A DNA stretch of 64,000 bases. Origin: Sporosarcina sp. ANT_H38 (lineage in GTDB: Bacteria; Bacillota; Bacilli; Bacillales_A; Planococcaceae). The position numbers were made by a program, and so were the translations under genes. The stretch is taken from assembly GCF_008369195.1 (NCBI RefSeq), contig NZ_VOBC01000001.1, positions 1,488,001 to 1,552,000 on the forward strand, read 5' to 3'. The notes beneath the pieces are model-generated. The model was not told the origin of the DNA. It saw only the letters and a list, made by a program, of their open reading frames with translations, and made no database searches. Shown piece after piece: positions 2,174 through 16,614 of this stretch (position 1 is its first letter; each line of letters begins with the position of its first letter).

Positions 2174-2205
2174 CACAGCTGTTATCAAAACTAAATCTTT
2201 TTCGA

Positions 2206-2264
2206 TTAGCCCGCCATTTGCTCAAGTCGAGTTTTATAGCGCCATGATAACGAATTCACTACTA
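2206..2264 (-). pseudogene. Displaced spo0A 3'-end copy 1 (putative attachment-site remnant)
   Basis: Read on the minus strand this stretch gives SSEFVIMAL, then after a small shift KTRLEQMAG and TAA. The real Spo0A ends [19 protein letters not shown]. So it is a degraded copy of the last 20 codons of spo0A in the same orientation as the gene, with a net loss of a few bases. There is no further spo0A similarity upstream of it. It sits between the DUF342 gene and the accessory block, exactly where the original spo0A 3' end would be left if a mobile element had inserted in the gene's tip. Confidence 0.7.
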
Positions 2265-2335
2265 TATAGGTTGAATGAATCCTTGGAATACCACTTTGGG
2301 GATGCCTCCCACCAGTACCAGTTACCCGTTTGCGT
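2258..2335. repeat. Dispersed intergenic repeat, copy A
   Basis: The block starting AGGTTGAATGAAT and containing GGGGATGCC recurs in diverged form at 47,598-47,670, in the same order (AGGTTGAATGAAT, GAATACC, GGGGATGCC). Neither copy is coding. Function unknown. Confidence 0.5.
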
Positions 2336-2468
2336 CTATTTAAAATACCCCTAAATCGCAATTTAGGAAGGAGTTATCAATATAACTTGTTAAACAAATC
2401 ATCAGCAAAATCTTACTTTGACATCCTAGGCTCCTCTTGGCGACACTAATTTCTATGTAGTTCGATTC
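2336..2468. other. Intergenic remainder before the VWA gene, nothing recognised
   Basis: AT-rich stretch downstream of the minus-strand VWA gene. No open frame, hairpin with T run, or known RNA was recognised. Confidence 0.4.
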
Positions 2469-3206
2469 TTATAATGCAAGCATATCCTTAGCCTTAATTT
2501 CACTCAGCCAATCCGGAAACTCTGTAAGCAACTTATCATATAGCTCTTCATCTGTAATATTCATAATGTCATCCACTTTAAAGAAATCAGCATTGTCTAC
2601 ATGTCTATCTTTAAGGTCGTCTAATTTCTGTAAGAAAGTAAACTCTTCTTTCCCAATTCCTACGAACTGCCAAAAGATTGGTTGAGTAGAGCTTTCACGC
2701 ACAATTCTCGTTGCTTCTCTCTTATCAGAATTGTTCCCATCCGTTATAAAGAGTACAAAAGTGGGATATGCAGGCTTTTTAGGCACTTCAACTTTCTTCT
2801 TATTAAACAACCCACCCAGCAAACTCTTAGTAACAGGTTCTTGATCTACATTTAAAGCTATTCCGTACTTAGCTACGACATCTTCCATAACAGGAGCGTA
2901 TTTCGTTGTACCGCTTACTCCCATATTATTATCTTTCACAAATGTAGCGTGATTCGCTTCTGTTGCAACACCTACGTAGTTTGATCCTTGGTTAAACTGG
3001 AAAACGTCAATTTCTTTATTAGCATCCATATTCATCCCAATAGCCAGAAGACGCTCAACAAGCTCCTGCACAGTTCCATTTTTGTACAACGTTCTCATTG
3101 AACCTGATTGATCGATTACGAGTACGATTTCAGCTTTAACACCATTTAGGTTCTTCTTTTCTAAAACGATACCCGCTTTTTTAGTTAAGTCGATTAAATT
3201 ACCCAT
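2469..3206 (-). CDS. VWA-domain protein, TerF/TerY-like
   Basis: A 245-residue cytoplasmic protein with a von Willebrand factor A domain. The metal-ion-dependent adhesion motif DQSGSM is at about residues 33-38, a conserved threonine occurs in GVSGTTKY, and FITDGNNSDKR supplies the third metal site. The N-terminus (LIDLTKKAGIVLEKKNL) resembles that of tellurite-resistance/stress VWA proteins, but no TerD domain is attached and no ter gene lies nearby. It stands alone inside the accessory block between two spo0A-tail copies. Binding partner and function are unknown. Confidence 0.75.
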   Translation of the reverse strand: MGNLIDLTKKAGIVLEKKNLNGVKAEIVLVIDQSGSMRTLYKNGTVQELVERLLAIGMNMDANKEIDVFQFNQGSNYVGVATEANHATFVKDNNMGVSGTTKYAPVMEDVVAKYGIALNVDQEPVTKSLLGGLFNKKKVEVPKKPAYPTFVLFITDGNNSDKREATRIVRESSTQPIFWQFVGIGKEEFTFLQKLDDLKDRHVDNADFFKVDDIMNITDEELYDKLLTEFPDWLSEIKAKDMLAL

Positions 3207-3414
3207 ATCATATCAATCTCCCATTCTTTTTTTGCAGTATTTAATACAATGATTCTAAGCTATTATACCACCTTAGGTTCAAGTTAGGATTCATGGGGAC
3301 GTATCCCCTTTCATTTATTTGATTCTCAACAATTCGAACATAAAAGAATCGGTGATTACGTAAATCTTTTTAGTAAGTGTGTGCGACTGCTCCAATAATT
3401 ACTAAGTTTCGAGA
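3207..3414. other. Upstream region of the VWA gene
   Basis: Contains the short palindrome GGGGACGTATCCCC at about 3,296-3,309. No gene was recognised. Confidence 0.3.
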
Positions 3415-3463
3415 AATACAAAAAAGTCAGCCCACACAATTATATAATGTGTTGGCTGACTTG
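3415..3463 (-). terminator. Rho-independent terminator of the cupin gene
   Basis: Strong hairpin AAGTCAGCC...GGCTGACTT (3,424-3,462), followed on the minus strand by a T run. It ends transcription of the cupin gene. Confidence 0.8.
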
Positions 3464-3500
3464 TTGTTGCTTTTTAAATAGGAAGAACTAGATTTACAAA

Positions 3501-4031
3501 TTAACCTAGTTCCGGAATTTCTTCGTAAGCCAACTTCATGATGATTTCTTCGTGTTTCGGATACTTCATTAAAAGTTCAGATTGTGTAAACAGTTCAAAG
3601 TCTTGGAATTCAAATCCGGGAGAAACCATACAACCTACCAGGGAGCAAGTATCTTCTTCCATAACGGATGACCCGAAGATTGAGTTTTTTGGAACTAGCG
3701 CTTGGGGCACTTCTCCATTATCCAAGTTCATCCCTAATTTGATTTCTTCATATTCTCCATTTTCATCAATGATGTGAATTGTTAATGGACTTCCAGCGTG
3801 ATAATACCATAATTCATCCGATTTTAAACGATGGAAGTGAGAGACGTCATTTGAAGTTAATAGAAAGTAAATGCTCGTATACATTTTTCGTTTGCCTTCG
3901 AAATTGACAGTCAATTCTTGGTCAGACGTGTGTTCTTCTGACTCAAAAGTTCTTTTATAATAACCGCCTTCTGGATGAGGGAGGAGTCCGAGATTAGACA
4001 CCCAGTATTGTGCATTACTATTCTTCATCAT
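3501..4031 (-). CDS. Cupin superfamily protein (DUF985/cupin_5)
   Basis: A 176-residue protein matching the DUF985 family in length and motifs. It opens with YWVSNLGLLPHPEGGYYKRT, then TSIYFLLTSNDVSHFHRLKSDE with the histidines of the cupin barrel, WYYHAGSPLTIHII, and the C-terminal GCMVSPGFEFQDFEL. The family is a single-domain beta-barrel of unknown substrate; some members are annotated as sugar epimerase-like. It has its own terminator downstream and is followed upstream by the nucleoside transporter on the same strand, 41 bp away, so co-transcription is possible. Confidence 0.85.
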   Translation of the reverse strand: MMKNSNAQYWVSNLGLLPHPEGGYYKRTFESEEHTSDQELTVNFEGKRKMYTSIYFLLTSNDVSHFHRLKSDELWYYHAGSPLTIHIIDENGEYEEIKLGMNLDNGEVPQALVPKNSIFGSSVMEEDTCSLVGCMVSPGFEFQDFELFTQSELLMKYPKHEEIIMKLAYEEIPELG

Positions 4032-4072
4032 AAAATCCCTTCCTCTTATAAATTTCTAGTTATTTTTAGTTA

Positions 4073-5272
4073 TTACCAAACAAATAAGCCTACAACCATA
4101 GCTGTTAAGCTAGAAACAAGGATACCACTTACTAGTAATAGCCATGTATATTTTGCGATAAATCTAGATTTCTTTTCGCCAAATAATGATTGCATACTTC
4201 CGAGAATGATTCCAATTGTCGCAAAGTTACAAAACGAAACAAGAAATGTTGAAGCAACAGCTTCTGTATGCGCATTGAAGCCCGAAAGCATTTCTTTTAA
4301 GTTGGTCATTGCAACAAATTCATTTAATACAATTTTCACTCCCATTAATTGACCGACTGAGAGTATTTGTGAAAATTCAACCCCCATTAATAAGCTTATT
4401 GGAGAGAAAATCAGACCAAAAATATTTTCAAGTGCAAGATCATCATGAATCAACCCCAAGAAACTGTTCGCAGCTGTAATAAGAGAAACAAATCCGATAA
4501 GCATCACTGCGATAATTAACGCTAATTTCCCACCAATCATCATGCTATTAGATATCACATCAAAGAAATTCCCTCTATCAGCTTTAGATGGTGTGTAGAC
4601 AACATCCTCTTCTTTTGACACAGTGTACGGATTGATCAAAGAAGTAATAATAAGTGCTCCAATCGCGTTTAACGGAATTGCCGTTAACACATATTTCGGA
4701 TCCAATAATTGCAAATATCCACCAAGCATCCCCGCACTTACGCAAGACATACTAATCATGGCTACCGTTAATAATCGTTTGTCACTCATTTTATTCAATT
4801 GATCTCTTGTGACTGCCAATGCTTCATTATTGCCTAAGAACATAACTTGTATTGCATAAAAACTTTCGAATCGAGGCATTTTAGTGATTTTAGATAAGAC
4901 CCATCCGATGCTATTAATAATCAACGGTAAAACACGGAAATAGGTTAAAATATCAAAAAACGTTACGACAAAAATAATTGGCATTAGTACATTCATGAAT
5001 AACGTGAAGGTCGAACCGTCGATTGGCGCAAACTCACCAAATACAAAGTTTACCCCTGACATCCCACTGCTAATTAGCCATAGGAAGAAATCAGAAACTA
5101 GCGTAATCACAGTTCCTCCAATATCAGTCGATAACATAAACCAGGTAGTAATTAACTGTAATACAAATAAGATAATAAGGGGCTTATATGTAATTCCCCT
5201 TTTATTAAATGACAAAAGAAAGGCAAGACCAAGTACAGATAAAATACCAATAATATTAATAATAAAATACAT
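4073..5272 (-). CDS. nupG: Purine nucleoside transporter, CNT family (NupG-like)
   Basis: Concentrative nucleoside transporter of 399 residues, the length of B. subtilis NupG/YxjA (397). About nine hydrophobic membrane segments are visible. The conserved core FLGNNEALAVTRDQL and the C-terminal FVSFCNFATIGIILGSMQ are typical of the family. It imports purine nucleosides with a cation. A guanine-type riboswitch with terminator lies directly upstream, as it does for B. subtilis nupG, which supports guanosine/inosine as substrate. The gene lies between two spo0A-tail copies, so it may be part of an inserted segment or have been displaced into it. Confidence 0.88.
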   Translation of the reverse strand: MYFIINIIGILSVLGLAFLLSFNKRGITYKPLIILFVLQLITTWFMLSTDIGGTVITLVSDFFLWLISSGMSGVNFVFGEFAPIDGSTFTLFMNVLMPIIFVVTFFDILTYFRVLPLIINSIGWVLSKITKMPRFESFYAIQVMFLGNNEALAVTRDQLNKMSDKRLLTVAMISMSCVSAGMLGGYLQLLDPKYVLTAIPLNAIGALIITSLINPYTVSKEEDVVYTPSKADRGNFFDVISNSMMIGGKLALIIAVMLIGFVSLITAANSFLGLIHDDLALENIFGLIFSPISLLMGVEFSQILSVGQLMGVKIVLNEFVAMTNLKEMLSGFNAHTEAVASTFLVSFCNFATIGIILGSMQSLFGEKKSRFIAKYTWLLLVSGILVSSLTAMVVGLFVW

Positions 5273-5321
5273 CCGCTTCTACTCCCTTTACATAAAAATA
5301 TTTCAACCATATAACTTTAAA

Positions 5322-5383
5322 AAATAAAAAAGACCCAAGAAATATTATCCACTTAAAATGAGTGAACAATATTTCTTGGGTCG
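5322..5383 (-). terminator. Riboswitch-controlled terminator of nupG
   Basis: Minus-strand hairpin with stem GACCCAAGAAATATT... and its complement, followed by TTTTTT. The 5' arm (CAAGAAATATTGTT) is almost exactly complementary to the sequence following the aptamer (AACAATATTTTCTTG, about 5,432-5,447), so the two structures exclude each other: guanine-bound aptamer favours the terminator. Confidence 0.88.
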
Positions 5384-5445
5384 TTTAAATAGCCGATGAT
5401 CCTAATGAGCTACATTCAGGAAAATCAAACACAAGAAAATATTGT

Positions 5446-5513
5446 TACCCATAGTCGATCCTTTACGGGGATCGGTAGAAACTTGCAGGCCATATTCCTG
5501 CGATTATATGAGT
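5446..5513 (-). promoter_or_regulatory. Guanine riboswitch aptamer
   Basis: The minus strand reads ACTCATATAATCGC ... GGCCTGCAAGTTTCTACC ... CGACTATGGGT, matching the purine aptamer consensus with its P1 stem, J2/3 GTTTCTACC and J3/1. The specificity base in CGACTATGG is C (guanine type), not U (adenine type). It controls nupG by termination. Confidence 0.92.
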
Positions 5514-5526
5514 AAAATACTATTAT

Positions 5527-5555
5527 TTTATAAAGTTACTTTAAGATTGTATCAA
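5527..5555 (-). promoter_or_regulatory. Sigma-A-type promoter of nupG
   Basis: Minus strand TTGATA (5,550-5,555), a 17-nt spacer, then TATAAA (5,527-5,532), placed about 15 nt before the riboswitch aptamer. Confidence 0.6.
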
Positions 5556-5705
5556 AAACTCTTATATTTGAAAAGCTTTTTAGAGATATCAATAAATCGA
5601 AAGTATATTCAATAAATAATAAATATTATTATTATTAAGTTAAATAACCCAATTTTAGCTTTTACATGCTTTTAAGGAAGAAAATTGCTTGGTTTATCCA
5701 TCAGT

Positions 5706-5783
5706 TAAAATGCTTTCATACCAACGTTAACTCGCCATATACTCAAGCCGGATTTTATCAGCAATCAATGGGATGGATTCTGA
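5706..5783 (-). pseudogene. Displaced spo0A 3'-end copy 2 (putative attachment-site remnant)
   Basis: The minus strand reads [18 protein letters not shown] then TAA, against [18 protein letters not shown] in the real Spo0A tail: 14 of 18 residues identical, with many third-base differences. Similarity continues about 20 bp past the stop (TTGGTATGA), into what is non-coding next to real spo0A. Upstream of the copy there is no spo0A similarity. It has the same orientation as spo0A and copy 1. Such a short, bounded 3'-end copy is what tyrosine-recombinase insertion into a gene tip leaves behind. Confidence 0.75.
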
Positions 5784-5982
5784 ACATATTTCACACGCCT
5801 GTTGATTAACCAGAATTAACCAGCAAACAACTTGATCATACAAGATGTTTCATTTACGTTTGTCATTGGATCGTTTCAGACTGAACGACTTCTATTTGAT
5901 TTGAATGTTAATCAAAAAGTTAGTACAAACGTTCGAACAAGGTTATAATTGTGGTAAATTAAAGCCAAAGGAGTCTTGCCTT
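5784..5982. other. Leader region before the AhpD-like gene
   Basis: Non-coding, AT-rich. Contains the AAAGGAGT ribosome binding site at about 5,967-5,974 for the following gene. No promoter was assigned with confidence. Confidence 0.35.
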
Positions 5983-6426
5983 ATGAGTCAAAGAGTTCCC
6001 TACAATGATGTTGCACCCGAAGGTATGAAAATTATGATGGATATGGAGAAGTACACTAAGCAGTCTACAATTAATAGAACTACTAGAGAGTTAATCAAAA
6101 TCAGAGCCTCTCAAATTAATGGCTGTGCATTCTGCATTGATATGCATTCATCCGATGCTCGTAAGATGGGTGAAACTGAACAACGAATTTATTGTTTGAG
6201 TGCTTGGAAAGAATGCACTTTTTATACACCGAAGGAGAAAGTTGCTCTGGAACTGTCTGAGCATATTACGCTAATCCCTACCAAAAGAGTTCCTGACGAT
6301 CTGTACAAGCGAGTACGTGAACAATATGACGAGAAACAATATGTTGACCTTGTTCTAATCATCAATCAAATCAACAGTTGGAATAGAATTTCTATTGCAA
6401 TGGGTAATATCGCAACTGAAAAATAA
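5983..6426 (+). CDS. AhpD-like carboxymuconolactone decarboxylase family protein
   Basis: A 147-residue protein of the AhpD/CMD superfamily. The segment RASQINGCAFCIDMHSSDA carries the CxxC redox pair with the downstream histidine of the alkylhydroperoxidase-type active site. NTRELIKIRA-like and INQINSWNRISI segments are family hallmarks. The start ATG at 5983 has AAAGGAGT 8 nt upstream; an upstream in-frame ATG at 5905 lacks a ribosome binding site. Likely a small cytoplasmic thiol peroxidase-type enzyme; the physiological substrate is unknown. It lies just inside the second putative inserted segment and has its own terminator. Confidence 0.88.
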   Translation: MSQRVPYNDVAPEGMKIMMDMEKYTKQSTINRTTRELIKIRASQINGCAFCIDMHSSDARKMGETEQRIYCLSAWKECTFYTPKEKVALELSEHITLIPTKRVPDDLYKRVREQYDEKQYVDLVLIINQINSWNRISIAMGNIATEK

Positions 6427-6435
6427 TTACTCTCA

Positions 6436-6463
6436 ACGAACATCTTTTGATGTTCGTTTTTCC
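6436..6463 (+). terminator. Rho-independent terminator
   Basis: Hairpin ACGAACATC-ttt-GATGTTCGT followed by a T run, directly after the AhpD-like gene. Confidence 0.8.
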
Positions 6464-6667
6464 ATCTCCTTTTACTGCGCAGTAAAAGTGAATTTCTTCA
6501 ACATCTACAATTGCGAAGCTTACAAGACTGTAATAACAGTCTCACCTAATAAAATAGTGAACATTTCAAGGATGTTTTAAGATACAAAGTGAAAATAAAA
6601 AACCGCTACTGAAAGGTGAATGTTATAAAAAAATCTTGTAAAGCGCTTATCTATATTTTGTGGTGCC

Positions 6668-6955
6668 ATGTTATTACTCGCTGGCGGATACATATTCACT
6701 ATTATGGATTACGGTACACCAGCTGAATTTGGCGAAGAAGTTTGGACCGAAACTAAGGAATTAGCTGAACAAGTGACTATCAAACACTTTAAAAATAAAA
6801 AAAATATGGATATCGTGATTAAAGATATAAGTCACTCAGGCGAATACGCAACACCCGAAATTTACATAGATGGACATGTTGCTGGCGATGAACAACAGAA
6901 ATTCTCTGCTATCGTAAGTTCTTCCAACGACTATGAAGTCACATGTAAAAACTAA
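6668..6955 (+). CDS. Small membrane-anchored protein, N-terminus apparently broken
   Basis: A 95-residue frame with a hydrophobic N-terminus (MLLLAGGYIFTIM) followed by a hydrophilic, probably extracytoplasmic domain. No family was recognised. The ATG at 6668 has no convincing ribosome binding site. A better-placed ATG at 6620, after GAAAGGTG, is in the same frame but is followed by a TAA at codon 3, next to a run of seven A (6,627-6,633). Without that stop the protein would start with KNLVKRLSIFCGAM, a typical signal-anchor. So the gene may be damaged or carry a sequence error. Confidence 0.5.
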   Translation: MLLLAGGYIFTIMDYGTPAEFGEEVWTETKELAEQVTIKHFKNKKNMDIVIKDISHSGEYATPEIYIDGHVAGDEQQKFSAIVSSSNDYEVTCKN

Positions 6956-7079
6956 AATGTGATATCATCGTATTCTATGAATAATTATTAACAAAGCGAA
7001 AGCCGATCAGTACGTCTAGTTCCAACTATTTCTTCGTTTAATAACGTTCTTTACTACTCCTATATCACCAGATGACTAT

Positions 7080-7119
7080 GATAAAGACTGTTGATTATTT
7101 TTAATCAGTGGTCTTTTTA
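7080..7119 (+). terminator. Terminator, repeat family copy 1
   Basis: Hairpin around TTGATTATTTTTAATCAGTGG followed by TCTTTTT. It is one of three closely related copies (others at 8,826 and 10,729), each preceded by GATAAAG and each about 90-130 bp after a small plus-strand gene. Confidence 0.7.
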
Positions 7120-7541
7120 GTTATATTGTGTATTACTCCTCTTGTTTGGTTGGTAAATAACCGATTCCCCTTGCAAATTCCAGTATCGACTCCATTACTT
7201 CCTCTTCGTATCCCCAGTGCCGACAATATAGACCACCTACCCGTTATCATGATTAAAATTATCGTCACCATTGATGAAGTCCTTGAAGTCGTTATCCAAG
7301 CCCCACATCGTACCGCCGCTAGTAAAATACATTCTTTGAACTTCTGTTTTAGTAGCGGCACCTTACTTCATTCTCAACGGAACCCCTGTATAATGATCCA
7401 CATAAACAATGCCCGGCCATCTTAAACAAAATACGCAAAGCGTTTGTGTTTTTTCGAGAATAAAAACTCTCTCCCGTTTTCAGCTATTTTTTCAATGAGT
7501 TTATTGATGATCATGATGCGTTCATGCTTATTTCTTTTCAT
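7110..7541 (-). pseudogene. Decayed gene of unrecognised accessory protein
   Basis: An ATG at 7541 with GGAGAGG upstream starts MKRNKHERIMIINKLIEKIA, which stays open to a TAA after KKHKRFAYFV. Protein-like sequence then continues in shifting frames: VDHYTGVPLRMK, a stop, GAATKTEVQRMYFTSGG, TMWGLDNDFKDFINGDDNF, a stop, VVYIVGTGDT, then EEVMESILEFARGIGYLP. At least four lesions separate these parts, so the gene is dead. The family was not identified; the style resembles short proteins carried by plasmids and phages. Confidence 0.55.
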
Positions 7542-7767
7542 AACCTCTCCAATTCTCCATTTGTTCGAATTGTGTACTATTTCCCAATCAATCTATAACC
7601 ACATTTACAACGTTATTTTTTACGATCACACACTAAATTACATCATTTAATTGTGCTGTAATAAATGCGCATATTTTATTAACAGGACAAATTACCAGAA
7701 CAAAATCTAGTATTTAATGATATAATATCCAGTCTATGAAATTTCGATAATGAAGGAGGAACCCGAC
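7542..7767. other. Intergenic region between divergent pseudogenes
   Basis: AT-rich. It holds TATAATATCC at about 7,720 (a plausible minus-10 element for the plus-strand GNAT gene) and the GAAGGAGG site at 7,752-7,759. Nothing else was recognised. Confidence 0.35.
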
Positions 7768-8244
7768 ATGATTACTCTCAGAAAAATCACACTAGAAAAC
7801 CGGCGTGCCATCTTTAAATTGGAAGTTTCAGAAGACCAACGTCGCTTCGTTGCGTCCAATCTATCAAGCGTGGCTTCGTGCTACGTCCTTGCAACCAATG
7901 GGGGACAACCATTTCCGTTTGCTATTTATTCCAATGAGTAGCCCGTTGGATTTGTTATGCTGACCTATGGAATCACCGGATACGAACTCCCATCAATCGA
8001 AGACGACGGGTATTGCATCGTGCGACTGATGATTGACAAGCAATACCAGAACCAAGGATACGGTCGAGAAGCTATGAAAAAAGTATTGGAATTTATCCGT
8101 ACCTTTCCGGCTGGTCCTGCAAATTACTGCTGGACCTCTTATGAAGCCAATAACGTCGTTGCTAAAAAGCTTTATGAAAGCTTCGGCTTCCATGACAACG
8201 GTGAAATCTTCCACAACGAACCAATAACTGTATTGCACCTCTAA
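7768..8244 (+). pseudogene. GNAT acetyltransferase interrupted by an amber codon
   Basis: Starting at ATG 7768 (GAAGGAGG upstream), the frame reads MITLRKITLENRRAIFKLEV up to FAIYSNE, then TAG (7,939-7,941), then continues in the same frame PVGFVMLTYGI. The rest has the acetyl-CoA-binding pattern IDKQYQNQGYGREAMKKVLE (Q/R-x-x-G-x-G/A) and the C-terminal NNVVAKKLYESFGF. Joined, the product is about 158 residues, normal for the family. Only the single in-frame stop separates the halves, so the loss is recent, or the base is a sequencing error. The second half alone lacks the N-terminal strands. Confidence 0.75.
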
Positions 8245-8525
8245 TTTGTGCCTCTCCATGATATAGGAATCGTTAATTTCATCAATTTCTGCGTTCTTAT
8301 GATTGAACTAGAGGGTATGATTGCTGGCGAAGTGAGTTTCCCTCTCTCTCATCCTCCTTACATCACAGTTTGTGTCTACTACGCTTTATATTTCCACTAT
8401 ATTGCTGACCCATTTCCCTTATTAAAACATTAATTATTTAATTACTTTTCATGTATCAATCATAAGCATATAATTTAAGAATTAAAAGATATTTTTTGCT
8501 TTTATTTCTCTTTTTTGGAGGCAAT
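8245..8525. other. Intergenic stretch
   Basis: Contains a 61-codon frame (8,248-8,433) without ribosome binding site that was not accepted. TTTGGAGG at 8,514-8,521 is the binding site of the next small gene. Confidence 0.3.
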
Positions 8526-8739
8526 ATGACTGATTTAACAGAACAACCATTGACTACTATACTAACTCAATTAACATTTAGCCCTCTGTATATTCTCACA
8601 GTAATAGTAGCTCTTGGTGTACTTATTTTCTTACGAAGTGAAAAGGGTTGCTTAATGTTTTTTTTATAAAATTTTCGCTGTCGGTCACATTATCATTTAT
8701 CTCCTAGCTATGTATTTTCATTTAACAAACCGGAATTGA
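8526..8739 (+). pseudogene. Small two-segment membrane protein with a frameshift in a T8 run
   Basis: ATG 8526 follows TTTGGAGGCAAT. The frame encodes MTDLTEQPLTTILTQ and a membrane helix (YILTVIVALGVLIFL) before ending at a TAA at 8,667 just after eight T (8,658-8,665). With seven T the frame continues YKIFAVGHIIIYLLAMYFHL to a TGA at 8,737, adding a second membrane helix. The intact protein would be about 71 residues. No family recognised. If the T8 is real, a 47-residue single-helix protein is made. Confidence 0.45.
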
Positions 8740-8825
8740 TACATTATTCGGGCCCACTACTAAATACATCTCTATTTATTGATTTCCTTCTCTGCTAATT
8801 CTGTTACTAAATCATAAGACAACTG

Positions 8826-8868
8826 CGATAAAGACCACTGATTATTTTTTAATCAGTGGTCTTTTTTT
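8826..8868 (+). terminator. Terminator, repeat family copy 2
   Basis: Perfect hairpin AAAGACCACTGATTA / TAATCAGTGGTCTTT followed by further T. It is the best copy of the GATAAAG-type terminator family. Confidence 0.85.
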
Positions 8869-9227
8869 GTCGTTATCTCTTCGCTTTATATTCGTACTGT
8901 CTATGAAGCTCTGCCTAAAATACCCTTTGCTTTCTTAAATGCAAGCGCATCATAAGAGAAGTTTAATTTACTGTAACTGCGAGTTTTTGATTGTATGGAT
9001 CGTAACCTTGGCAGCCTTCGCAATTTAATTGATGCTGAAATCTTTCTTCTCTACACCATTTTGAGAGTTTACTTAAGCAAACTCTTTTTTGATATTTAAA
9101 TAAGAATCATCAAGGAACCAAAAAATAATAATAAAAAGTACATAGAATATTAAGGTATAGACAATCATACATTTAATCAAAGTTGTTGTTTGTATTAGAT
9201 AGCAAATTATTGTAGAGGGGGATAGCT
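8869..9227. other. Intergenic stretch with a minus-strand coding scrap
   Basis: On the minus strand, about 8,970-9,080, a short frame reads KWCREERFQHQLNCEGCQGY, with a CxxC pair that looks like a remnant of a zinc-binding protein. It has no start or context. The GAGGGGGAT site before the next gene is at 9,214-9,222. Confidence 0.3.
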
Positions 9228-9626
9228 ATGAGCAATGAATTTGTTTTACTGGCACCGACAGCTTTTCAAGTGTTTAAAGCAGGTGAGTCGAATCCAAAAA
9301 AAGTAAAGCGGATTGTTTATGGACAAGCTACATCAGACGCGAATGGTATAGCCACACTTTATTTCACAGAAAACGGATTGGCTAATGGCAAAACATTTTT
9401 AACAACTATTGACTATGCAGTATCAAGCGTATATTCCACAAATCCTTCGATAAATGCAAGACCGAGAGTACAAATGCGCGAGAAGAATGTTACCGCAAAG
9501 TATGTCTCTGCTAATGTTACAAACACTAGCAGTATAGTAGTTCTAGGAATTAATGTATTAGGTTCAGAAAATCCAGTGAGTGGAATTCTTGTAGATTTTA
9601 TGATTTTAGGTAGTTTTGATAGTTAA
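9228..9626 (+). CDS. Hypothetical protein, phage-structural-like
   Basis: A 132-residue protein without signal peptide or membrane segment. It has a strong ribosome binding site (AGAGGGGGAT, 6 nt spacing). The first half contains QATSDANGIATLYFTENGLA, a pattern seen in small phage structural proteins where a value is added and checked by a beta-sandwich. The second half ends in a hydrophobic beta-rich tail. It neighbours a phage-type methyltransferase remnant and an integrase remnant, which fits a prophage origin. No family could be named with certainty. Confidence 0.55.
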   Translation: MSNEFVLLAPTAFQVFKAGESNPKKVKRIVYGQATSDANGIATLYFTENGLANGKTFLTTIDYAVSSVYSTNPSINARPRVQMREKNVTAKYVSANVTNTSSIVVLGINVLGSENPVSGILVDFMILGSFDS

Positions 9627-9774
9627 GTGAAAGCGACAAAGAGTTTGAAAGAATTGGATTAATAATGGTTGTTCGAAATTTTTGGTCACAATTTCCTCTA
9701 AGCTTTAAATTATTCGCCAGATAGATATTATTTTGCTTGGTTAGCAAATTGGATTTAAGGAATTCACTATTCAT
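9598..9774 (-). CDS. Possible small protein, unrecognised
   Basis: A 58-codon frame starting MNSEFLKSNLLTKQNNIYLA from ATG 9774, with AAGGGGG 6 nt upstream. Its 3' end overlaps the end of the converging 9228 gene by 29 bp. The C-terminal part is low complexity, so it may be a truncated remnant. No homologue recognised. Confidence 0.3.
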   Translation of the reverse strand: MNSEFLKSNLLTKQNNIYLANNLKLRGNCDQKFRTTIINPILSNSLSLSLNYQNYLKS

Positions 9775-9825
9775 TACCAAACCCCCTTCCACCTTTTTTG
9801 AATTATCTATTTTCAAAACGTTGTA

Positions 9826-10245
9826 TTAATCTTTCAAAATTGTGAGCCAATACATTTTACTTCTACGCTTCCCGAACTGTGGTTTAAAATCTATCACTGA
9901 TAGTATCTCGCCCCAATAGATTTGTTCTTCATTCTATTTGAAAATTAGTGTACCGCTCCGTTTCAAAACCCTGATGCACTCGATAAATCCTTGTTTCATA
10001 TCATTTGATCTACTTTTTTCAAATACTCCGTACTTCTTACCTAACCACGAATACTCCCCAACCTTTAACAAATATGTTGGATCTAATACTATTAAATAAA
10101 AACTACTATCAGAGAATGGAATATCACGGAAAACTACTATACTGTCATAGTTTACTTCTAATGTGCGACCATCACATAATGTGGCGCTTAGTTCACGTTT
10201 ATCCATGTAGATTGCACTTTCGTGTTGCATATGGAACCAAAACAT
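9826..10245 (-). pseudogene. Phage-type DNA methyltransferase remnant with amber stop
   Basis: The frame reads FWFHMQHESAIYMDKREL, TLCDGRTLEVNYDSIVVFRD, IPFSDSSFYLIVLDPTYL, KQGFIECIRVLKRSGTLIFK, then TAG at 9,934-9,936, then NEEQIYWGEILSVIDFKPQFG to a TAA at 9,826. This matches the small SAM-dependent methyltransferases of Bacillus phages, where TLIFKWNE is usual: the tryptophan TGG has become TAG. The DPPH-like catalytic motif is DPTY here. Upstream of 10,245 the frame ERILDS is shifted by a small deletion, removing the glycine-rich SAM motif. At least two lesions, so inactive. Confidence 0.7.
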
Positions 10246-10462
10246 GAATCTAAAATACGTTCAATCTATTTCTACACCTACTCATTTTGAGTCTACTCCC
10301 TATGTACGAACTGTCTAATTCCCTAACAATCAAAAGGATATATTATTACAATTCGGTAACAAACTGGTAACAATTAGCCGATAATGTTTACTTAATTATT
10401 TTTTGATGAGACAATTCCTTTAGAACAAATCAATTGTTAATGTCATAAATCGGAGGTGATTC
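10246..10462. other. Intergenic stretch
   Basis: Start of the methyltransferase remnant in another frame (ERILDS, about 10,250-10,270) and the leader of the next small gene with CGGAGGTGAT at 10,451-10,460. Confidence 0.35.
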
Positions 10463-10633
10463 ATGTTTGTAATCATACGAGACAACGATGGTGTAACAGA
10501 GATTTTAAAGGAATCTAGCACTCAGTCGGACAAAACTTTTACCGATTACTACGCGGCAGACTTGTTAGTGCAACAACTGAATCAAAACGTAATCCCCTCC
10601 AAAAATTGGAGTGTTTCTGAAAAATTACACTAA
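10463..10633 (+). CDS. Small protein of 56 residues, unrecognised
   Basis: ATG 10463 follows the near-perfect ribosome binding site CGGAGGTGATTC. The protein begins MFVIIRDNDGVTEILKESST and ends WSVSEKLH. It is acidic, soluble and without membrane segment. The strong initiation region and the following terminator-family repeat support a real gene. It is too short for most automatic tracks. Function unknown; lies in the prophage-like part of the accessory block. Confidence 0.6.
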   Translation: MFVIIRDNDGVTEILKESSTQSDKTFTDYYAADLLVQQLNQNVIPSKNWSVSEKLH

Positions 10634-10728
10634 GTAGCTCAACAAGCGGTTAGCTACTTAGCCTCTATCTCTGATTTTCATTAAATAAATTTTCTACCAA
10701 TATGTAGCTATTTTACAAGATAACCATG

Positions 10729-10767
10729 ATAAAGGTTGATGATTATTTGTAATCAGCGGTCTTTTTG
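10729..10767 (+). terminator. Terminator, repeat family copy 3
   Basis: GATAAAGG followed by an imperfect hairpin around GATTATTTGTAATC and CTTTTT, homologous to the copies at 7,080 and 8,826. It lies about 95 bp after the 56-residue gene. Confidence 0.6.
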
Positions 10768-10857
10768 ATTGAACTGAATAGCTACCTAAATACCGACAGC
10801 TGTTTTCACCTCGAATTTTCTTCACACGTCTCTGGTGAATTGGACCTGACCAATGTA

Positions 10858-11517
10858 TCAGTGAATCATAGGAAAACCGAATTTCCACAACAACACGTGT
10901 CGACCTTGATCAGATAACGAAACTTGTCGCCATTTCCTGTTTCCCGCTTCATTTTTCACCTGATAAACCCCACATTTCAATGCTTGTTCTACTTGTGGCC
11001 CACTCATTTCGACAGCTTCGTTCAGCCTCAACCCCATTGTCCCTGCCAATTGCATCACGGCTCACACATTAGCAGCTGTTTCAGTGCCTCTCCCATCGTC
11101 TTCAGCCCTTTCTCGTACGAACCTTCTGTATATCGTTATATTCGCGTTCTGTCCACGCTCTATCTCCTTTTACCGCTGGCGTTTTCTCTTATAGGATAAA
11201 AAATGTATCTTTCAGTCCTTTATTATCGGGAATTTCATGTTTGACTTTCGAATTCTTGTCTTGCATATAGCGAATTGCACCAAGGTCGTTTTTGAGCGTT
11301 TTCGGTGCAACTTCCTCTGTTTGTCGTTGTTGGATTTAAGCCACTAAATGTTTATCTTGTAAATTCCGCAAGTTTTCAGCTTGAATTCCTCGTCTAAAAA
11401 CCCGACGAAGTTCCGACAGCTGCTTTCGTATCTGGCACGAATACAGAAGGAGTTTGCTCTTGTATGTCGATATACTTTCTCCATCCGTGCCATGATTGGT
11501 GACTTTCCATTTGTCAT
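10858..11517 (-). pseudogene. Tyrosine recombinase (integrase) remnant 1
   Basis: From ATG 11517 (AAGGGAG upstream) the frame reads MTNGKSPIMARMEKVYRHTR then ARYESSCRNFVGFLDEEFKL, the SAM-like DNA-binding N-terminus of integrases. Further fragments in other frames include APKTLKNDLGAIRYMQDK and KTPAVKGDRAWTEREYNDIQ. The frame 10,858-11,058 reads LAGTMGLRLNEAVEMS, the conserved box around the first catalytic arginine of tyrosine recombinases, and VSLSDQGRHVLL. The C-terminal H-x-x-R/tyrosine part was not found. Several frameshifts make it a pseudogene. Confidence 0.72.
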
Positions 11518-11685
11518 TTTCAACTCCCTTTCACCCCCAAAAAATGCATAGCTCACACGTCGGTATTTTCAGGATTCCCTCGTCGAAGGCTAAAACAAAA
11601 ACATATAACCTGTGCCAACGGTATTTAGGGGTCTGTTTTCGGTTCTTGGGTACTGTTTTTGTTTCCTTTTAACTCTCATGTAGAC
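11518..11685. other. Upstream region of the integrase remnant
   Basis: No gene recognised. Confidence 0.3.
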
Positions 11686-11760
11686 TCAGTTGATATAACA
11701 TCCGTTCACGGAAGTAGTTAACTTTATTACTCAATAAGAAAAAGCAACCCGTTAGTTTAA
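11686..11760. repeat. Island repeat family R, copy 1
   Basis: Contains GTTCACGGAAGTAGTTAA and TTACTCAATAAGAAAAAGC. About 80% identical over 55 bp to the copy at 12,489. It lies immediately after the 3' end of the minus-strand gene 11,792-12,334. Confidence 0.65.
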
Positions 11761-11791
11761 CAAGGAATCTAATCTTCTTCTCTTATATTCG

Positions 11792-12334
11792 TTATTCAAT
11801 TGAATTAGCAATTTCAACTAATGTATCAGCGGTTACCTTAGATACCCTTTTATCGATTCCAAGCATATATTGCCAATTACCATCTTCGAAAACAAAAAAA
11901 TTAAATAATTGATGTTCAACATAAATAGCTTTCTGTCCATTTTTAAGTGTATAGACTTTCTGATTGCCTCTATTCTTAAAAGTTATTTTATTTTTCAAGG
12001 GACGAATATCAATTTTATAATTATTTACTGTTACCTTTTCATTCACTAACTTGATTTCCAGTAAATCATTGATGTCATATTTGTTATCTTCATTAAATCT
12101 TCCGAACTGGAGGGTGAAAGGAATAGATGGCTTGATTTCCGGCAATTTCACATCTTGTTTAAAGTGATTTTCAAATTCCTTAACTGCTTTTTCAACAGAT
12201 ATATATCCAAATTGGGCGTAACTTTCTTCAAGAGATGGGGGGGTATCGTTTGGGTTTGCAAATATCATTTCATTAGCTGAAAAACAAATGGAGATACATA
12301 TTATTGAAAATAAAAGATGAGTTTTTTTTTGCAT
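11792..12334 (-). CDS. Secreted protein of unknown function
   Basis: A 180-residue protein with a clear signal peptide: MQKKTHLLFSIICISICFSA, with a likely cleavage after IFA (about residue 27). The start ATG 12334 has AAGGGTGTG upstream; an upstream GTG at 12343 is less likely. The mature part is rich in beta strands; the C-terminal LFNFFVFEDGNWQYMLGIDK and VTADTLVEIANSI resemble the DUF4367-like C-terminal domain found on anti-sigma-type proteins of Bacillales. The neighbouring sigma/anti-sigma pair is consistent with that, but the link is inference. Confidence 0.6.
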   Translation of the reverse strand: MQKKTHLLFSIICISICFSANEMIFANPNDTPPSLEESYAQFGYISVEKAVKEFENHFKQDVKLPEIKPSIPFTLQFGRFNEDNKYDINDLLEIKLVNEKVTVNNYKIDIRPLKNKITFKNRGNQKVYTLKNGQKAIYVEHQLFNFFVFEDGNWQYMLGIDKRVSKVTADTLVEIANSIE

Positions 12335-12458
12335 TTGCCACACACCCTTATTCTTTTAATAAATAGCTTTCCCATTAACAGAAAATATATTACTCTTCTC
12401 CAACTAATCTGCCCCGTTGAACAAGTCGCTACATGAGAGATCAATCTTCAAACCATTG
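12335..12458. other. Intergenic stretch
   Basis: No gene recognised; leads into repeat copy 2. Confidence 0.3.
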
Positions 12459-12560
12459 AACGACCTTGTATACGCCATGCACACCAGGTTGACATAGCGC
12501 CAGTTCACGGGAGTAGTTAATTGCCTTACTCAATAAGAAAAGCTGCCATGTAAAGGGCAG
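12459..12560. repeat. Island repeat family R, copy 2
   Basis: Longest copy. Its left half (CGACCTTGTATACGCCATGC, CAGGTTGACATAGCGCC) matches 13,825-13,870; its right half (GTTCACGGGAGTAGTTAA, TTACTCAATAAGAAAAGC) matches 11,703-11,752. It follows the anti-sigma gene and includes its terminator hairpin. Confidence 0.65.
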
Positions 12561-12583
12561 CCGATTGTTCCCTTTTTTGATAT
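12536..12583 (-). terminator. Terminator of the sigma/anti-sigma operon
   Basis: Minus-strand hairpin GGCTGCCCTTTACATGGCAGC followed by TTTTCTT; stem GCTGCC/GGCAGC. Part of repeat copy 2. Confidence 0.65.
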
Positions 12584-12625
12584 TTAAATACTTTTATCAC
12601 CTTTTCGGACACCACTTCTTAAATA

Positions 12626-13237
12626 TTATTCCAGATAAGTTTCCGTTGAATATTCAATACCTTCTTCACCAACGAATTTCCTAGGTGCTATTTTTTTCAA
12701 GGTATAAGTGAACCCTTGCTTGCCAGTCACTTTGATTGTATACGTATCATTTTTCTTTTTAATACTATACTTGGTAAACTCTCCTGCTACTAAAGGTACC
12801 TCTTTTATTTTATACCTCTTTAAGATTTCTTCACTCAGGTCTGGATCGTAACTACTACTTTGGAAACGATCCTCAATCACGAGTGAATTTTTACTGAATA
12901 TAATTTCATAATAAGTTGTGCTAGTTTGACTCGTTTGTCTCAAAAAGACGCCGTCCCAGGAAGCCGTGACATCCGTTATATGCTCCCCTTTTCCAGAAGA
13001 CTCGCCAGTACCAATATATTCATTGTTGAACAAAACGAATATACCAGTGCAGACGGAGAATAAAACGACAAGTGAAACGATGGTTGGAAGCCATGTTTGG
13101 ATGCGATTTGCTTTTTTATTGCAGCTCGGTTGGAAAATCCGACGGTGCAAGTTTTCTTTTTGTGTTGAGGAGGGACGGAATGATTGGCCAAGCACTTCCA
13201 ACTCTTTCGTTATTTCATCATCGGATAAGTGTTTCAT
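12626..13237 (-). CDS. Anti-sigma factor (probable), single-pass membrane protein
   Basis: A 203-residue protein. ATG 13237 follows AAAGGAGGATTT. The N-terminus MKHLSDDEITKELEVLGQS is a short cytoplasmic region, followed by one membrane helix (WLPTIVSLVVLFSVCTGIFV, about residues 50-70) and an extracytoplasmic domain (TASWDGVFLRQTSQTSTTYY, GFTYTLKKIAPRKFVG). The gene overlaps the end of the ECF sigma gene by 20 bp, the usual arrangement for sigma/anti-sigma pairs. No zinc-binding HxxxCxxC motif is present, so sigma binding is inferred from position and topology. Confidence 0.7.
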   Translation of the reverse strand: MKHLSDDEITKELEVLGQSFRPSSTQKENLHRRIFQPSCNKKANRIQTWLPTIVSLVVLFSVCTGIFVLFNNEYIGTGESSGKGEHITDVTASWDGVFLRQTSQTSTTYYEIIFSKNSLVIEDRFQSSSYDPDLSEEILKRYKIKEVPLVAGEFTKYSIKKKNDTYTIKVTGKQGFTYTLKKIAPRKFVGEEGIEYSTETYLE

Positions 13238-13730
13238 TTGTAAATCCTCCTTTCTCCAATTCCTTTTTAAATACGGCAATTGCCCGCGACAGACTCATTT
13301 TCACTTTCCCTTCTGAACAATGTAAGATGGATGATGCTTCTTTTGTGGAAAATCCCTGAATCTTTCGCAATATGATCACTTGCTGGTAGCTAGGCTTTAA
13401 CCGATGGAGTGATTCATAAAATTGTTTTTGCTGCGAATTAAGAAGTGCAATCTCTTCCGGTGATGTATTGTGCTTGGAACTGAGGATATTCGTATCGAAA
13501 TAATACGTTAAGGGGTTTTTCTTTCTGAAATAGCTCATCGTTGTCGTATACGCAATCCGAAAAATCCATGTTTTTATGGAAGACTGTTCCTTGAATTGAT
13601 GTTCGTTCGCAATGACCTTCAAAAATGTCTCTTGTGTTAGGTCTTCGGCGGTATGAGGATCTTTGACTTGTAATAAGATGTAACTGTAGATGGAACCAAA
13701 ATAGTCATTAAACCATTTCTCACTGGACAT
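13218..13730 (-). CDS. ECF-type RNA polymerase sigma factor
   Basis: A 170-residue sigma factor of the extracytoplasmic-function group. Region 2 is visible as KDPHTAEDLTQETFLKVIAN with the RTWIFRIAY-like KTWIFRIAYTTTMSYFRKK; region 4 is LHRLKPSYQQVIILRKIQGF plus STKEASSILHCSEGKVKMSL, a helix-turn-helix. The start ATG 13730 follows AGAGGTGAAAG; GTG at 13739 is an alternative. It directs RNA polymerase to promoters of an unknown regulon, normally held by the anti-sigma protein encoded next. It lies within the accessory block, so the regulon may be local. No autoregulatory promoter could be defined. Confidence 0.9.
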   Translation of the reverse strand: MSSEKWFNDYFGSIYSYILLQVKDPHTAEDLTQETFLKVIANEHQFKEQSSIKTWIFRIAYTTTMSYFRKKNPLTYYFDTNILSSKHNTSPEEIALLNSQQKQFYESLHRLKPSYQQVIILRKIQGFSTKEASSILHCSEGKVKMSLSRAIAVFKKELEKGGFTNETLIR

Positions 13731-13820
13731 CTCTTTCACCTCTCTTCCCTTACTAACTACTTAGACGCAATCCATTAAAATCCGTAACGGTTATTATCAT
13801 ATCGGTATTAACATTACTTG

Positions 13821-13890
13821 TTAAAGGACCTTGCATACTCCATACATAACAGGTTAACATAACACCGATTCTCGGCAGTTTGTTAAGACA
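13821..13890. repeat. Island repeat family R, copy 3
   Basis: GGACCTTGCATACTCCATAC then CAGGTTAACATAACACCGAT, aligned to 12,463-12,512 at about 70% identity. It lies in the 400-bp gap upstream of the sigma gene. Confidence 0.55.
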
Positions 13891-14084
13891 GGTAACCCTT
13901 TGTAATGCCTCTGCCCCCCCTTATTGCCCTCGGCGTTCTTTATGCACGGAAACTATACATCGTTGAGTTAACGGGCTTTCTGGTGAAAGCTAAGCCTGTC
14001 TAAACGAATAGATATGCAGGTTTCAATTTATCTACAAGAAGGCAAAAAATATGTATTTTATAATCGAAATGTTTCTTCCCCAAT
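13891..14084. other. Intergenic stretch
   Basis: No gene was seen. A C7 run occurs at about 13,914-13,920. Confidence 0.3.
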
Positions 14085-14110
14085 AAAAAATAGCTACCGA
14101 AGTAGCTAGC
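14085..14110 (-). terminator. Terminator of the 14,139-14,579 gene
   Basis: Minus-strand TAGCTACTTCGGTAGCTA followed by TTTTTT. Confidence 0.75.
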
Positions 14111-14138
14111 TCAATAGTATTTATATATTTACAACCAA

Positions 14139-14579
14139 TTAATATGAGATTGAACCAAAACTTATACTTTTCTCACTAGATAGACCACATCCTTTTAATT
14201 GGACAAGTCTTCCACCGTAATCTATATCAACAGAAGTTAATTCTTCACACATAAATTGTCTTACAAATTCTTTCTCCGAGGTAAATTCTTTTACTTGAAT
14301 TTCTGATTTCTGTCGGTGCAAGTCGTAGATCTCTACTTCAGTTATTATTTTCATCTCGTTGCTGTTCTTTTCAATAAAAGAAGATACTGCAGCATGATTT
14401 TCTGTGTTTAGTTCATATGGATTAGTAAAATCCACTAGAAGTGGCTTAGACGTCTGAATATTTATAAAAATAGTGAGTGAGAGGATTATTATTAACGTTG
14501 TTGTGAGAATTATTAAAATCAAATTCACCATTACTTTAGTCGGATTGATATCCGGCTCTCCTTTTTGCTCGTTTGTCAC
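14139..14579 (-). CDS. Membrane-anchored hypothetical protein
   Basis: A 146-residue protein that starts with GTG (14579) after AAGGAGA. A single N-terminal membrane helix (VNLILIILTTTLIIILSLTI, about residues 18-37) anchors an extracytoplasmic domain of about 105 residues, with two cysteines (MCEEL, KGCGL) that could form a disulphide. No family recognised. It stands alone with its own terminator in the accessory block. Confidence 0.6.
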   Translation of the reverse strand: MTNEQKGEPDINPTKVMVNLILIILTTTLIIILSLTIFINIQTSKPLLVDFTNPYELNTENHAAVSSFIEKNSNEMKIITEVEIYDLHRQKSEIQVKEFTSEKEFVRQFMCEELTSVDIDYGGRLVQLKGCGLSSEKSISFGSISY

Positions 14580-15059
14580 GATAAGAATCTCCTTGTTATC
14601 GAGTTTGTTAAATTTGTGTAATGTATTTTAGTTCCTTTTACAAATTATCATGTAATTGTACGGTGTTCTTTGTTAGTTTTTCAACTTGTCCACCTTTACC
14701 ACTAATCTTTAAATGAAGCTGTTTATAGATTTAATGTTAATATATTTGACTGAAAAATTACTAGACCGGACGGCACAACATTTGGAAGCGGAACTTTAGC
14801 ACCCGGGAGATGCATCACAGATAAAGTAAATAATTCTTATCCTAACATGGCAATAGGGACGTATAAATTCTCTTTTGTTGTTTTGTCCCACTTTAGATAT
14901 AACTCGTTAGTCTTATTTCATTTCATTCAGCTATCCAATCAACATTCCACGTTCCTGTGGGTAATGTTTCATTCCCGATCCATCTAGCTCATCCTAAAGC
15001 TACTGTAACCTCAAGATGATAGTTACATCCATTAAAGACTTTAAGATGCTCTAGAATGG
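14580..15059. other. Gene-poor stretch with a plus-strand coding scrap
   Basis: On the plus strand at about 14,760-14,870 an open stretch reads TRPDGTTFGSGTLAPGRCIT, then PNMAIGTYKFSF; it has no start and soon breaks up. It looks like a remnant of an exported or phage-type protein that was not identified. No other feature recognised. Confidence 0.3.
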
Positions 15060-15668
15060 ATCCTGTGACCTCATGTTAATATTTTAAGCTTGTACTTCGA
15101 TGACACCAAGTACAATCAATAATTACTATCTTTCCTCATCAATTAATAAAGTTGATTCTTGTCTCTCTGTTATCTTATCGTTCTTAAAGCACTCAGGAAG
15201 GATTTCTACTTTTGCATGACTTCGCTTTATGCCTCTTTACATTTTAAAAGGTTGATAGCTTGCTAAACGAAATTGAAGCATCGATTTGTACTACTTGTCC
15301 GTTTTGATCACGAGTGTTCATCTTTCAACATTTATAGAATACTTTGATATAACGAACATAATTATTTATGGTTGCTGAAGAAACTGTCTTTTTTCAGGTC
15401 AATTTATACCATTAGGATCATTAATCTTTCGACTCTTCTCATTACCAACAACTGTGTAATCCCCTTTCTTTCGAACTTACTTGACGCATTGTCGAATACG
15501 GGCCGCTTTTACCTTATCTGATTCATAAGTCTCGAGTTCACTCTTTACATAAACTAGGAACAGCTTAATTTATTGATCATATGACATGAACATTTTCTCG
15601 GACAGTTTCTTTGATTCGTAATACAACAGTGAAACTTCTAGATAAAATCCGATTTCTGTCAACTTCAT
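15060..15668 (-). pseudogene. Tyrosine recombinase (integrase) remnant 2, next to spo0A
   Basis: From ATG 15668 the frame reads MKLTEIGFYLEVSLLYYESK, then LSEKMFMSYDQ, stop, IKLFLVYVKSELETYESDKV, AARIRQCVK, stop, YTVVGNEKSRKIN. After a frame change it continues VSSATINNYVRYIKVFYK. These are the helices of the SAM-like N-terminal domain of tyrosine recombinases (S..T...Y...IK.F). Several stops and a frameshift inactivate it, and the catalytic domain was not found. It is the first gene remnant beyond the spo0A 3' end, the standard position of an integrase next to its attachment site. Confidence 0.68.
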
Positions 15669-15689
15669 TTTTCTAGCCTCTTTCCGGAC

Positions 15690-15725
15690 ATAAAAAAACC
15701 AACTAATCTAAAAATTAGTCAGCTT
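15690..15725 (-). terminator. Terminator downstream of spo0A
   Basis: Minus-strand CTAATTTTTAGATTAG hairpin followed by GGTTTTTTT, about 100 bp after the spo0A stop. Confidence 0.6.
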
Positions 15726-15822
15726 GTTGTGTAGGGATTTATAGGCTTAGAAATTGAAGTTTAATATAAATCCTAAAAATAAGTCGGCTTAGTAGCTGTT
15801 GAAAATCTTGTCATACCAACAA

Positions 15823-16614
15823 TCAGCTCGCCATATGCTCAAGACGAATCTTGTCTGCGATCATTGCGATGAATTCACTATTAGTTGGTTTGCTTTTCAA
15901 GTGATGCACAGTGTAGCCAAACATTTTGGAAATAACATCATAATTGCCGCGGTTCCATGCCACTTCAATTGCGTGGCGAATTGCACGCTCGACACGGGAT
16001 GCTGTCGTATTGTATTTTTTTGCAATCTCCGGATAAAGTACTTTCGTCACTGAACCAAGCAAATCGACGTCAGTGTAAACCATTTGAATCGCTTCACGAA
16101 TAAACGCATAACCTTTAATATGAGCAGGGACACCAATCTCCTTAATAATTGCTGTAATTGTAGTATCCAGCACTTTTTGACTTACTGTTCCTGGCGCATA
16201 CTCTCCGCTAGCTTGAACTATCGGAACTATCGGTTTTCTTGTTCCTGCTACTTGGAATATCTGGTTTGCAAGTCGTTCGAATTCAAAAGGTTTAAGCATG
16301 AAATACGAAGCGCCTAGACTCGCGGCTTGCGTCATTACATCTTCTTGTCCAAATGCCGTCAACATAATAATATGCACATCGGCAGTTTGTGCATTTTCAC
16401 TCAACGTTTCCAAAACCGCAATTCCGTCAAGGTGTGGCATGATAATATCAAGTAATAAGACATCTGGTTTTTTCTCTTCTAACATTGACAGACATACTTT
16501 GCCGTTATGCGCTGTCCAAATGACATCAATTTCAGGATGCCTTTCAAAATATGTCATCATAGTTTTCACCAATTCCTTGTTATCGTCAGCAATCGCAACT
16601 TTCAGTTTATCCAT
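15823..16614 (-). CDS. spo0A: Sporulation master regulator Spo0A
   Basis: Response regulator and transcription factor at the end of the sporulation phosphorelay. Receiver domain (about 1-120): VAIADDN acidic pocket, [19 protein letters not shown] with the phosphorylated aspartate, MLTAFGQED, and [10 protein letters not shown]. The C-terminal DNA-binding domain contains [18 protein letters not shown] and the recognition helix [18 protein letters not shown]; both are almost identical to B. subtilis. ATG 16614 (MDKLK) is 8 nt from AAGGGGGA; the ATG at 16620 is too close. The 3' tip is the sequence duplicated at 5,727 and 2,206. A sigma-H promoter and 0A boxes lie upstream. Confidence 0.98.

Follow-up and report, generated by a model that had tools for sequence, protein, structure and literature searches.

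Mobile elements with their own tyrosine recombinase very probably insert at the 3′ end of spo0A in Sporosarcina and its relatives

Spore formation in Bacillota has Spo0A as its key regulator. We analysed a stretch of 64,000 nucleotides from Sporosarcina sp. ANT_H38 (the window; positions 1,488,001 to 1,552,000 of contig NZ_VOBC01000001.1, assembly GCF_008369195.1), in which spo0A stands far from its usual downstream neighbour. With high probability this arrangement arose when mobile elements of one family, which carry their own tyrosine recombinase, inserted site-specifically at the 3′ end of spo0A, probably twice in succession. Because the recombinase is linked to spo0A, the old gene end is found displaced, a tandem array exists in genome G112 and a far flank is shared between strains, such elements appear to integrate at the end of spo0A, restore it and be able to stack. 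Loci (L), genomes (G) and contigs (C) are cited by number where needed.

In the window, spo0A is complete (15,823..16,620, minus strand) and is the sole full Spo0A match in the genome. The DUF342 gene, the usual downstream neighbour, lies on the same strand at 497..2,095, so that 13,731 bp separate it from the spo0A stop codon. A reading made from the sequence alone had claimed that the last ~20 codons of spo0A occur three times in the same direction. When the last ~150 nt of spo0A were aligned locally against both strands of the whole window, two further copies oriented like spo0A itself were recovered, with scores of 38 (copy 2) and 23 (copy 3) versus at most 17 anywhere else on either strand. 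Both copies stand above background; similarity at chance level was the outcome named beforehand as speaking against the claim. Copy 2 (5,707..5,780, minus strand, stop codon 5,727-5,729) has a frame open to its stop and many synonymous differences from spo0A (22 residues of its reading were set against 18 of the corresponding spo0A end). Its likeness to spo0A extends ~20 nt past the stop, as the sequence-only reading had also seen, and this flank is of the element type. Copy 3 (2,205..2,273, minus strand, stop codon 2,206-2,208) is frameshifted, yet its terminal reading is RLEQMAG-stop. Behind it lies what appears to be the ancestral spo0A terminator (2,134..2,176, minus strand), common to the flanks of copy 3, of strains BP05 and E16_8 and of the empty spo0A-DUF342 site of S. 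limicola. The last ~20 codons of spo0A itself (15,823-15,882, minus strand, by local alignment) would be the spo0A-side junction of the younger element. Copy 2 may be read as both the far junction of the younger element and the former spo0A-side junction of the older one, and copy 3 as the oldest, displaced end of the host gene.

An integrase remnant had been noticed next to the real spo0A end, and alignment identified it as a tyrosine recombinase pseudogene of the family linked to spo0A. It covers the N-terminal third of the protein, contains stops and lies at 15,324..15,704 on the minus strand, the same strand as spo0A, starting ~120 bp past the spo0A stop. Its best match (E 4e-17, over 15,662-15,334) was to a locus from IMG/VR (L207). 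It also matched L201 (2.6e-16) and L167 (1.4e-15), both of which stand directly 3′ of spo0A. Sequence and fold place a hairpin with a U-run at 15,692..15,724 (minus strand), behind spo0A and where the family has its recombinase leader hairpin.

The arrangement downstream of spo0A was compared at 80 named loci, 40 of them mostly from Sporosarcina (L009-L048) and 40 from other genera (L049-L088). In 25/40 of the former, no more than 310 bp separate the spo0A stop from the start of the DUF342 or glycerophosphodiesterase gene, in agreement with the claim that spo0A normally adjoins these genes. The distance was 310-1,000 bp in 8 and above 1 kb in 2, while neither gene was found in 5, 3 of which have a contig end within ~1 kb. 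The same bins held 9, 11, 12 and 8 of the loci from other genera. The spacing is disturbed in the close relatives of the window, namely Sporosarcina sp. E16_8 (L009, 3,943 bp), which has the best named Spo0A match to the window (98%), BP05 (L010, 1,198 bp) and JAI121 (L012, 590 bp), and also in G020 (1,214 bp) and G022 (3,976 bp). The starts of the inserts (the first ~145-480 bp past spo0A) are alike in three pairs (G022-window, G022-BP05 and BP05-window) and their ends (the last ~120-260 bp before DUF342) in all six pairs formed by the window, E16_8, BP05 and G020. The interiors of the inserts in the window and its sister strains showed no match beyond some shorter internal stretches. The shared far end is best understood as a displaced tail of spo0A with the old 3′ flank of the gene behind it. 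Empty spo0A-DUF342 sites thus exist and the old flank is found past copy 3, which favours insertion over the view that the 13.7 kb are ancestral.

To what recombinase family does the remnant belong? We aligned three open recombinases (L084, L077 and L080), all linked to spo0A. The R, H, R, H and Y positions of the tyrosine recombinase motif were invariant among them. In Lysinibacillus, Viridibacillus and Rummeliibacillus loci, the recombinase frame starts ~140-190 bp past spo0A. A search with this alignment in 261 genomes of the bacterial family found a match at E<=1e-45 in 21, spread over 7 of 19 genera. The recombinase was directly 3′ of spo0A in 21/21, and one extra gene (in G112) was located behind a displaced tail. 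An order-level search gave the same 261 genomes and is therefore not an independent survey. A class sample of 398 genomes yielded 7 matches, 1 of which had already been counted. The other six came from six families; five stood behind spo0A and the sixth (L202) behind an 18-codon spo0A tail (E 0.002). The only match in a phylum sample of 398 genomes was also behind spo0A. The sequence-only reading had suggested searching genomes for integrases directly downstream of spo0A, and this is where they were found in 21/21 genomes of the family, 5/6 further class matches and 1/1 of the phylum. Fourteen loci were recovered from IMG/VR: a spo0A tail was present upstream in 5/5 of those with enough sequence, and the other 9 begin ~110 nt or less from the recombinase. 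In 84 downstream regions (the 80 loci, 3 genomes and the window), a match to the family within 2.5 kb past spo0A was found on the same strand in 17 (window included) and on the opposite strand in none.

The recombinases of two genera were 94.7% identical, with Spo0A proteins only 74.8% identical; conversely, two genomes of one genus shared 95.8% identity in Spo0A and 50% in their recombinases. Since the identities of recombinase and Spo0A are incongruent, the recombinase may be read as a module bound to one site and moving horizontally. The family matches the Pfam model Phage_integrase; its matches to NCBIfam models all fall short of the cut-offs of those models. Kinship to known phages or plasmids was rejected, as the best matches, in 5 phage and 10 plasmid records, were just 24-34% identical.

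Intact elements were delimited in relatives. A displaced spo0A end was found in 15 of them, 4.5-35.8 kb away; these comprise 10 genomes, out of the 28 with a recombinase match, that were looked at over a longer range, and the loci L084, L077, L080, L064 and L081. All 10 longer-range genomes had a displaced end, at ~15.7, 15.9, 16.1, 16.3, 16.6, 17.4, 20.1, 21.1, 23.1 and 35.8 kb, and 8 of the 15 bounded elements measured 15.7-17.4 kb. L. fusiformis Juneja (L084) has an exact repeat of 64 nt from the end of spo0A, 16.1 kb away. In an ungapped comparison of 14 relatives, the repeat started 62-281 nt before the stop codon and ended at the stop in 10/14. The repeat of L081 contains an indel and is therefore absent from this comparison; BLAST gave 105 nt at 87% identity. 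In G128 and L080, the repeat runs 34-40 nt past the stop, like copy 2 of the window, and DUF342 follows 6.7 and 0.8 kb further on, as expected if the remnant of another element came next. G112 carries a tandem array, in which spo0A is followed by a first recombinase, a tail at +16.2 kb, a second recombinase in two pieces, a tail at +19.7 kb and DUF342. The end of spo0A was complete in all occupied sites examined. By sequence, these sites display what is expected of integrative elements at gene ends, that is, a recombinase at the target, a direct repeat at the far boundary, and an intact target together with empty sites. The proposal that elements insert at the 3′ end of spo0A, restore the gene and displace its old end is thus supported by intact examples in relatives and by the window remnant of the same recombinase family. 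As to a separate candidate, a recombinase 38 kb downstream of spo0A in G020 (L196) was considered as a far element end and rejected, being a remote recombinase with no spo0A tail nearby.

We considered the possibility that no mobile element was involved and that the three tails are decayed products of a segmental duplication or a gene conversion of spo0A. The divergence of the copies would fit such a history, and so would the 12.1 kb insert between spo0A and DUF342 in Psychrobacillus soli (L057, 10,789-22,900), whose beginning partially duplicates the 3′ part of spo0A, at near identity and over a much greater length than elsewhere. Yet the remnant in the window belongs to the recombinase family linked to spo0A, the interiors of the inserts are largely unrelated between sister strains, and long repeats bound elements with an open recombinase in relatives. 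On these grounds duplication without an element was rejected, and we regard it as exceedingly improbable. Since the long duplication in L057 has no recombinase match within 2.5 kb of spo0A, not every insert at this place need share one mechanism, and that of L057 perhaps arrived by a different route.

Whether the window records two insertions or one is a separate question. The hot spot could be real while the older segment, from copy 2 to copy 3, arose by homologous recombination between spo0A tails, or while both segments formed one composite element, so that a single site-specific event occurred. The older segment contains no recombinase and its genes look ordinary metabolic ones, and L057 offers a precedent for a long homologous tail lacking a recombinase. 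Against this, the stop of copy 2 is followed by flank of the element type; the same is seen in G128 and L080, whose copies have additional DNA beyond them. The tandem array of G112 also includes two recombinase genes. We therefore hold a single event to be unlikely, though less so than duplication. Two successive insertions, as the sequence-only reading had it, are the better reading because copy 2 has an element-type flank past its stop, as a former spo0A-side junction would. The younger insertion has a recombinase remnant; the older one, without a recombinase of its own, is read from the repeats and flanks.

Several observations weigh against insertion by this element family. No recombinase remnant was found behind copy 2 with the panel of the spo0A-linked family, so that the older insertion rests on repeats and flanks. 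A displaced spo0A tail was not found in G022 or JAI121, nor was a displaced copy in L066, which was tested like the other loci, and L057 had no recombinase match within 2.5 kb of spo0A. Furthermore, the search alignment was built from genes linked to spo0A, and weaker matches were hence checked as a control. This covered 9 (L188-L196) of 28 weaker places (E 1e-41 to 1e-30). Eight of the nine had no spo0A within ~1.5 kb; at the ninth, L195, a 54%-identical remnant stands behind spo0A, with a further tail copy beyond.

The proposed mechanism of integration is as follows. A circular form of the element would carry a copy of the spo0A end, ~60 bp in length (up to ~280 bp) and reaching to the stop, then a terminator hairpin, then the recombinase gene. 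Recombination between this copy and the end of the chromosomal spo0A would join the host gene to the tail of the element, so that Spo0A would stay whole while gaining the element's last codons and terminator. The old tail and the old terminator would move to the far side, beside DUF342. The attachment site would be re-created in the process, and the next element could enter and stack. Comparison of genomes documents the linkage of recombinase and spo0A, the end repeats, the empty, single and tandem sites and the incongruence of recombinase and host; from these we infer that the intermediate is circular, that the crossover falls within the last ~60 bp and in which order the two insertions came.

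In most members, the gap separating the spo0A stop from the recombinase contains a hairpin with a T run behind it. The run extends to the recombinase start codon or close to it, and often a GGAGG-like ribosome-binding site lies within the 3′ arm of the hairpin. That the recombinase starts in or just behind the hairpin that apparently ends spo0A is a new detail. Of 36 leaders submitted to a fold test, counting identical ones once left 32 rows, of which 3 without a qualifying U-run were set aside. Each of the 29 testable leaders was more stably folded than 100 dinucleotide shuffles of itself (z -2.3 to -8.5). The ribosome-binding motif was fully paired in 18 of the 29, and 3 had no such motif. 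No Rfam family reached the gathering score for the hairpin at 5 loci. Similar hairpins stand behind spo0A in Lysinibacillus loci with no recombinase match (L055, L067, L074 and L086), and spo0A may therefore retain a terminator of mobile origin. The hairpin would both end spo0A transcripts and hide the ribosome-binding site of the recombinase, thereby presumably blocking synthesis of the recombinase from spo0A read-through. Comparable protection exists for some transposase genes.

This location raises the idea of a developmental switch resembling the skin element, serving the host by an excision timed to sporulation. According to the part of the literature consulted (PMC10747680), several other sporulation genes harbour prophage-like elements whose excision occurs during sporulation. 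Here, the recombinase gene follows closely on spo0A and has a conserved leader hairpin. However, the window holds dead elements, with a pseudogene left of one recombinase, nothing of the other and divergence among the copies, and there would be nothing to reconstitute because the end of spo0A is complete in the occupied sites examined. A switch serving the host thus seems highly improbable. A distinct and rather doubtful idea is that the element itself reads the sporulation decision. The recombinase gene shares its strand with spo0A and begins ~120-190 bp downstream of it, and the terminator hairpin would incorporate the ribosome-binding site and start codon of the recombinase. If transcription of spo0A, or read-through, changed when sporulation begins, this might set recombinase levels, so that excision would precede the spore. 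Each insertion would also replace the last codons and terminator of spo0A, mobile DNA thereby supplying its 3′ end.

As to the cargo, protein scans covered 8 of the 22 open reading frames of the G117 element, 1 protein of G235 and 1 of L077. The G117 element encodes tape measure-like, small terminase-like, ParB-like and endonuclease VII-like proteins; the G235 protein matched an SU10-type major capsid protein and that of L077 a tail protein. When the proteins of 12 elements were clustered, the recombinase was the sole cluster present in 12/12, and a tape measure-like cluster occurred in 7/12. In six of the 12, ~200-300 nt short of the far end, lies a gene encoding 82-91 residues, by its position a candidate directionality factor. 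Its G117 copy had no PHROG or Pfam match and was not linked to known excisionases.

The remainder of the younger insert in the window (5,781..15,323, genes on both strands) includes a CMD-family gene (5,905-6,426, plus strand) and an extracytoplasmic function (ECF) sigma factor (13,218-13,739, minus strand) among other open reading frames. The older insert (2,274..5,706) encodes, all on the minus strand, a TerF-type vWA protein (2,469-3,206), a cupin of the DUF985 type (3,501-4,031) and a nucleoside transporter (4,073-5,272) behind a purine riboswitch (5,432-5,531), the sole Rfam match in the first 20 kb of the window. Two short overlapping frames at 10,694-11,058 (minus strand) look like a piece of another recombinase, and no match to the spo0A-linked panel was reported there. 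The younger insert also contains three direct copies of a ~60-nt unit with a near-perfect hairpin (7,060-7,118, 8,807-8,866 and 10,708-10,766), a further copy of which is on contig C6. A dispersed repeat of ~60 nt is present at 11,677-11,742 and 12,476-12,541. It has 18 matches in the genome (G000), on contigs C1, C2, C4, C7, C8 and C10 and mostly in intergenic gaps; 9 of the 18 are on C2, all 9 in one orientation.

Several families of the class, and one genome from elsewhere in the phylum, have this recombinase family at the tail of spo0A, and the last codons of spo0A, its terminator and its downstream neighbourhood appear to have been rewritten repeatedly by mobile DNA. The site offers a precise test bed for asking if elements take the timing of their excision from the sporulation decision. 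For annotators it flags an insertion hot spot, and it suggests a possible landing site for genetic tools in Bacilli.

A full-text literature search gave no description of spo0A as an attachment site; the TIGER/Islander island table (~1.75 million islands, PMC12424338) was outside this search and may list such islands. Islands at gene 3′ ends are known, according to the portions of the sources consulted, from Salmonella genomic island 1 (SGI1) in trmE and from islands in tRNA and transfer-messenger RNA genes (PMC8409611, PMC4383910). Like SGI1-type islands, the spo0A elements have a tyrosine recombinase at one end and a repeat of the target end at the other, leave the target whole and can stack. 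They differ in their target, in a recombinase that matches generic models only and in a start codon placed at the U-run of the target's terminator hairpin. Intervening elements of sporulation genes, as far as the consulted part of the source describes them, include skin in sigK, SP-beta in spsM, vfbin in spoVFB, gin in gerE and yin in yabG (PMC10747680). The spo0A elements resemble these in being mobile, partly phage-like DNA at a sporulation gene; in skin-type elements, however, the interrupted gene is rebuilt by excision, whereas spo0A is whole and the recombinase is of the tyrosine type. A possible likeness to satellites of the phage-inducible chromosomal island (PICI) type lies in the size of 8/15 bounded elements (15.7-17.4 kb) and in small terminase-like, tape measure-like, capsid and tail proteins. 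Unlike PICI-like satellites, the spo0A elements vary in gene content, the recombinase being the only gene common to the 12 compared. Gene-end integrating elements are a known class, to which they belong; what is unusual about them is the target and the leader.

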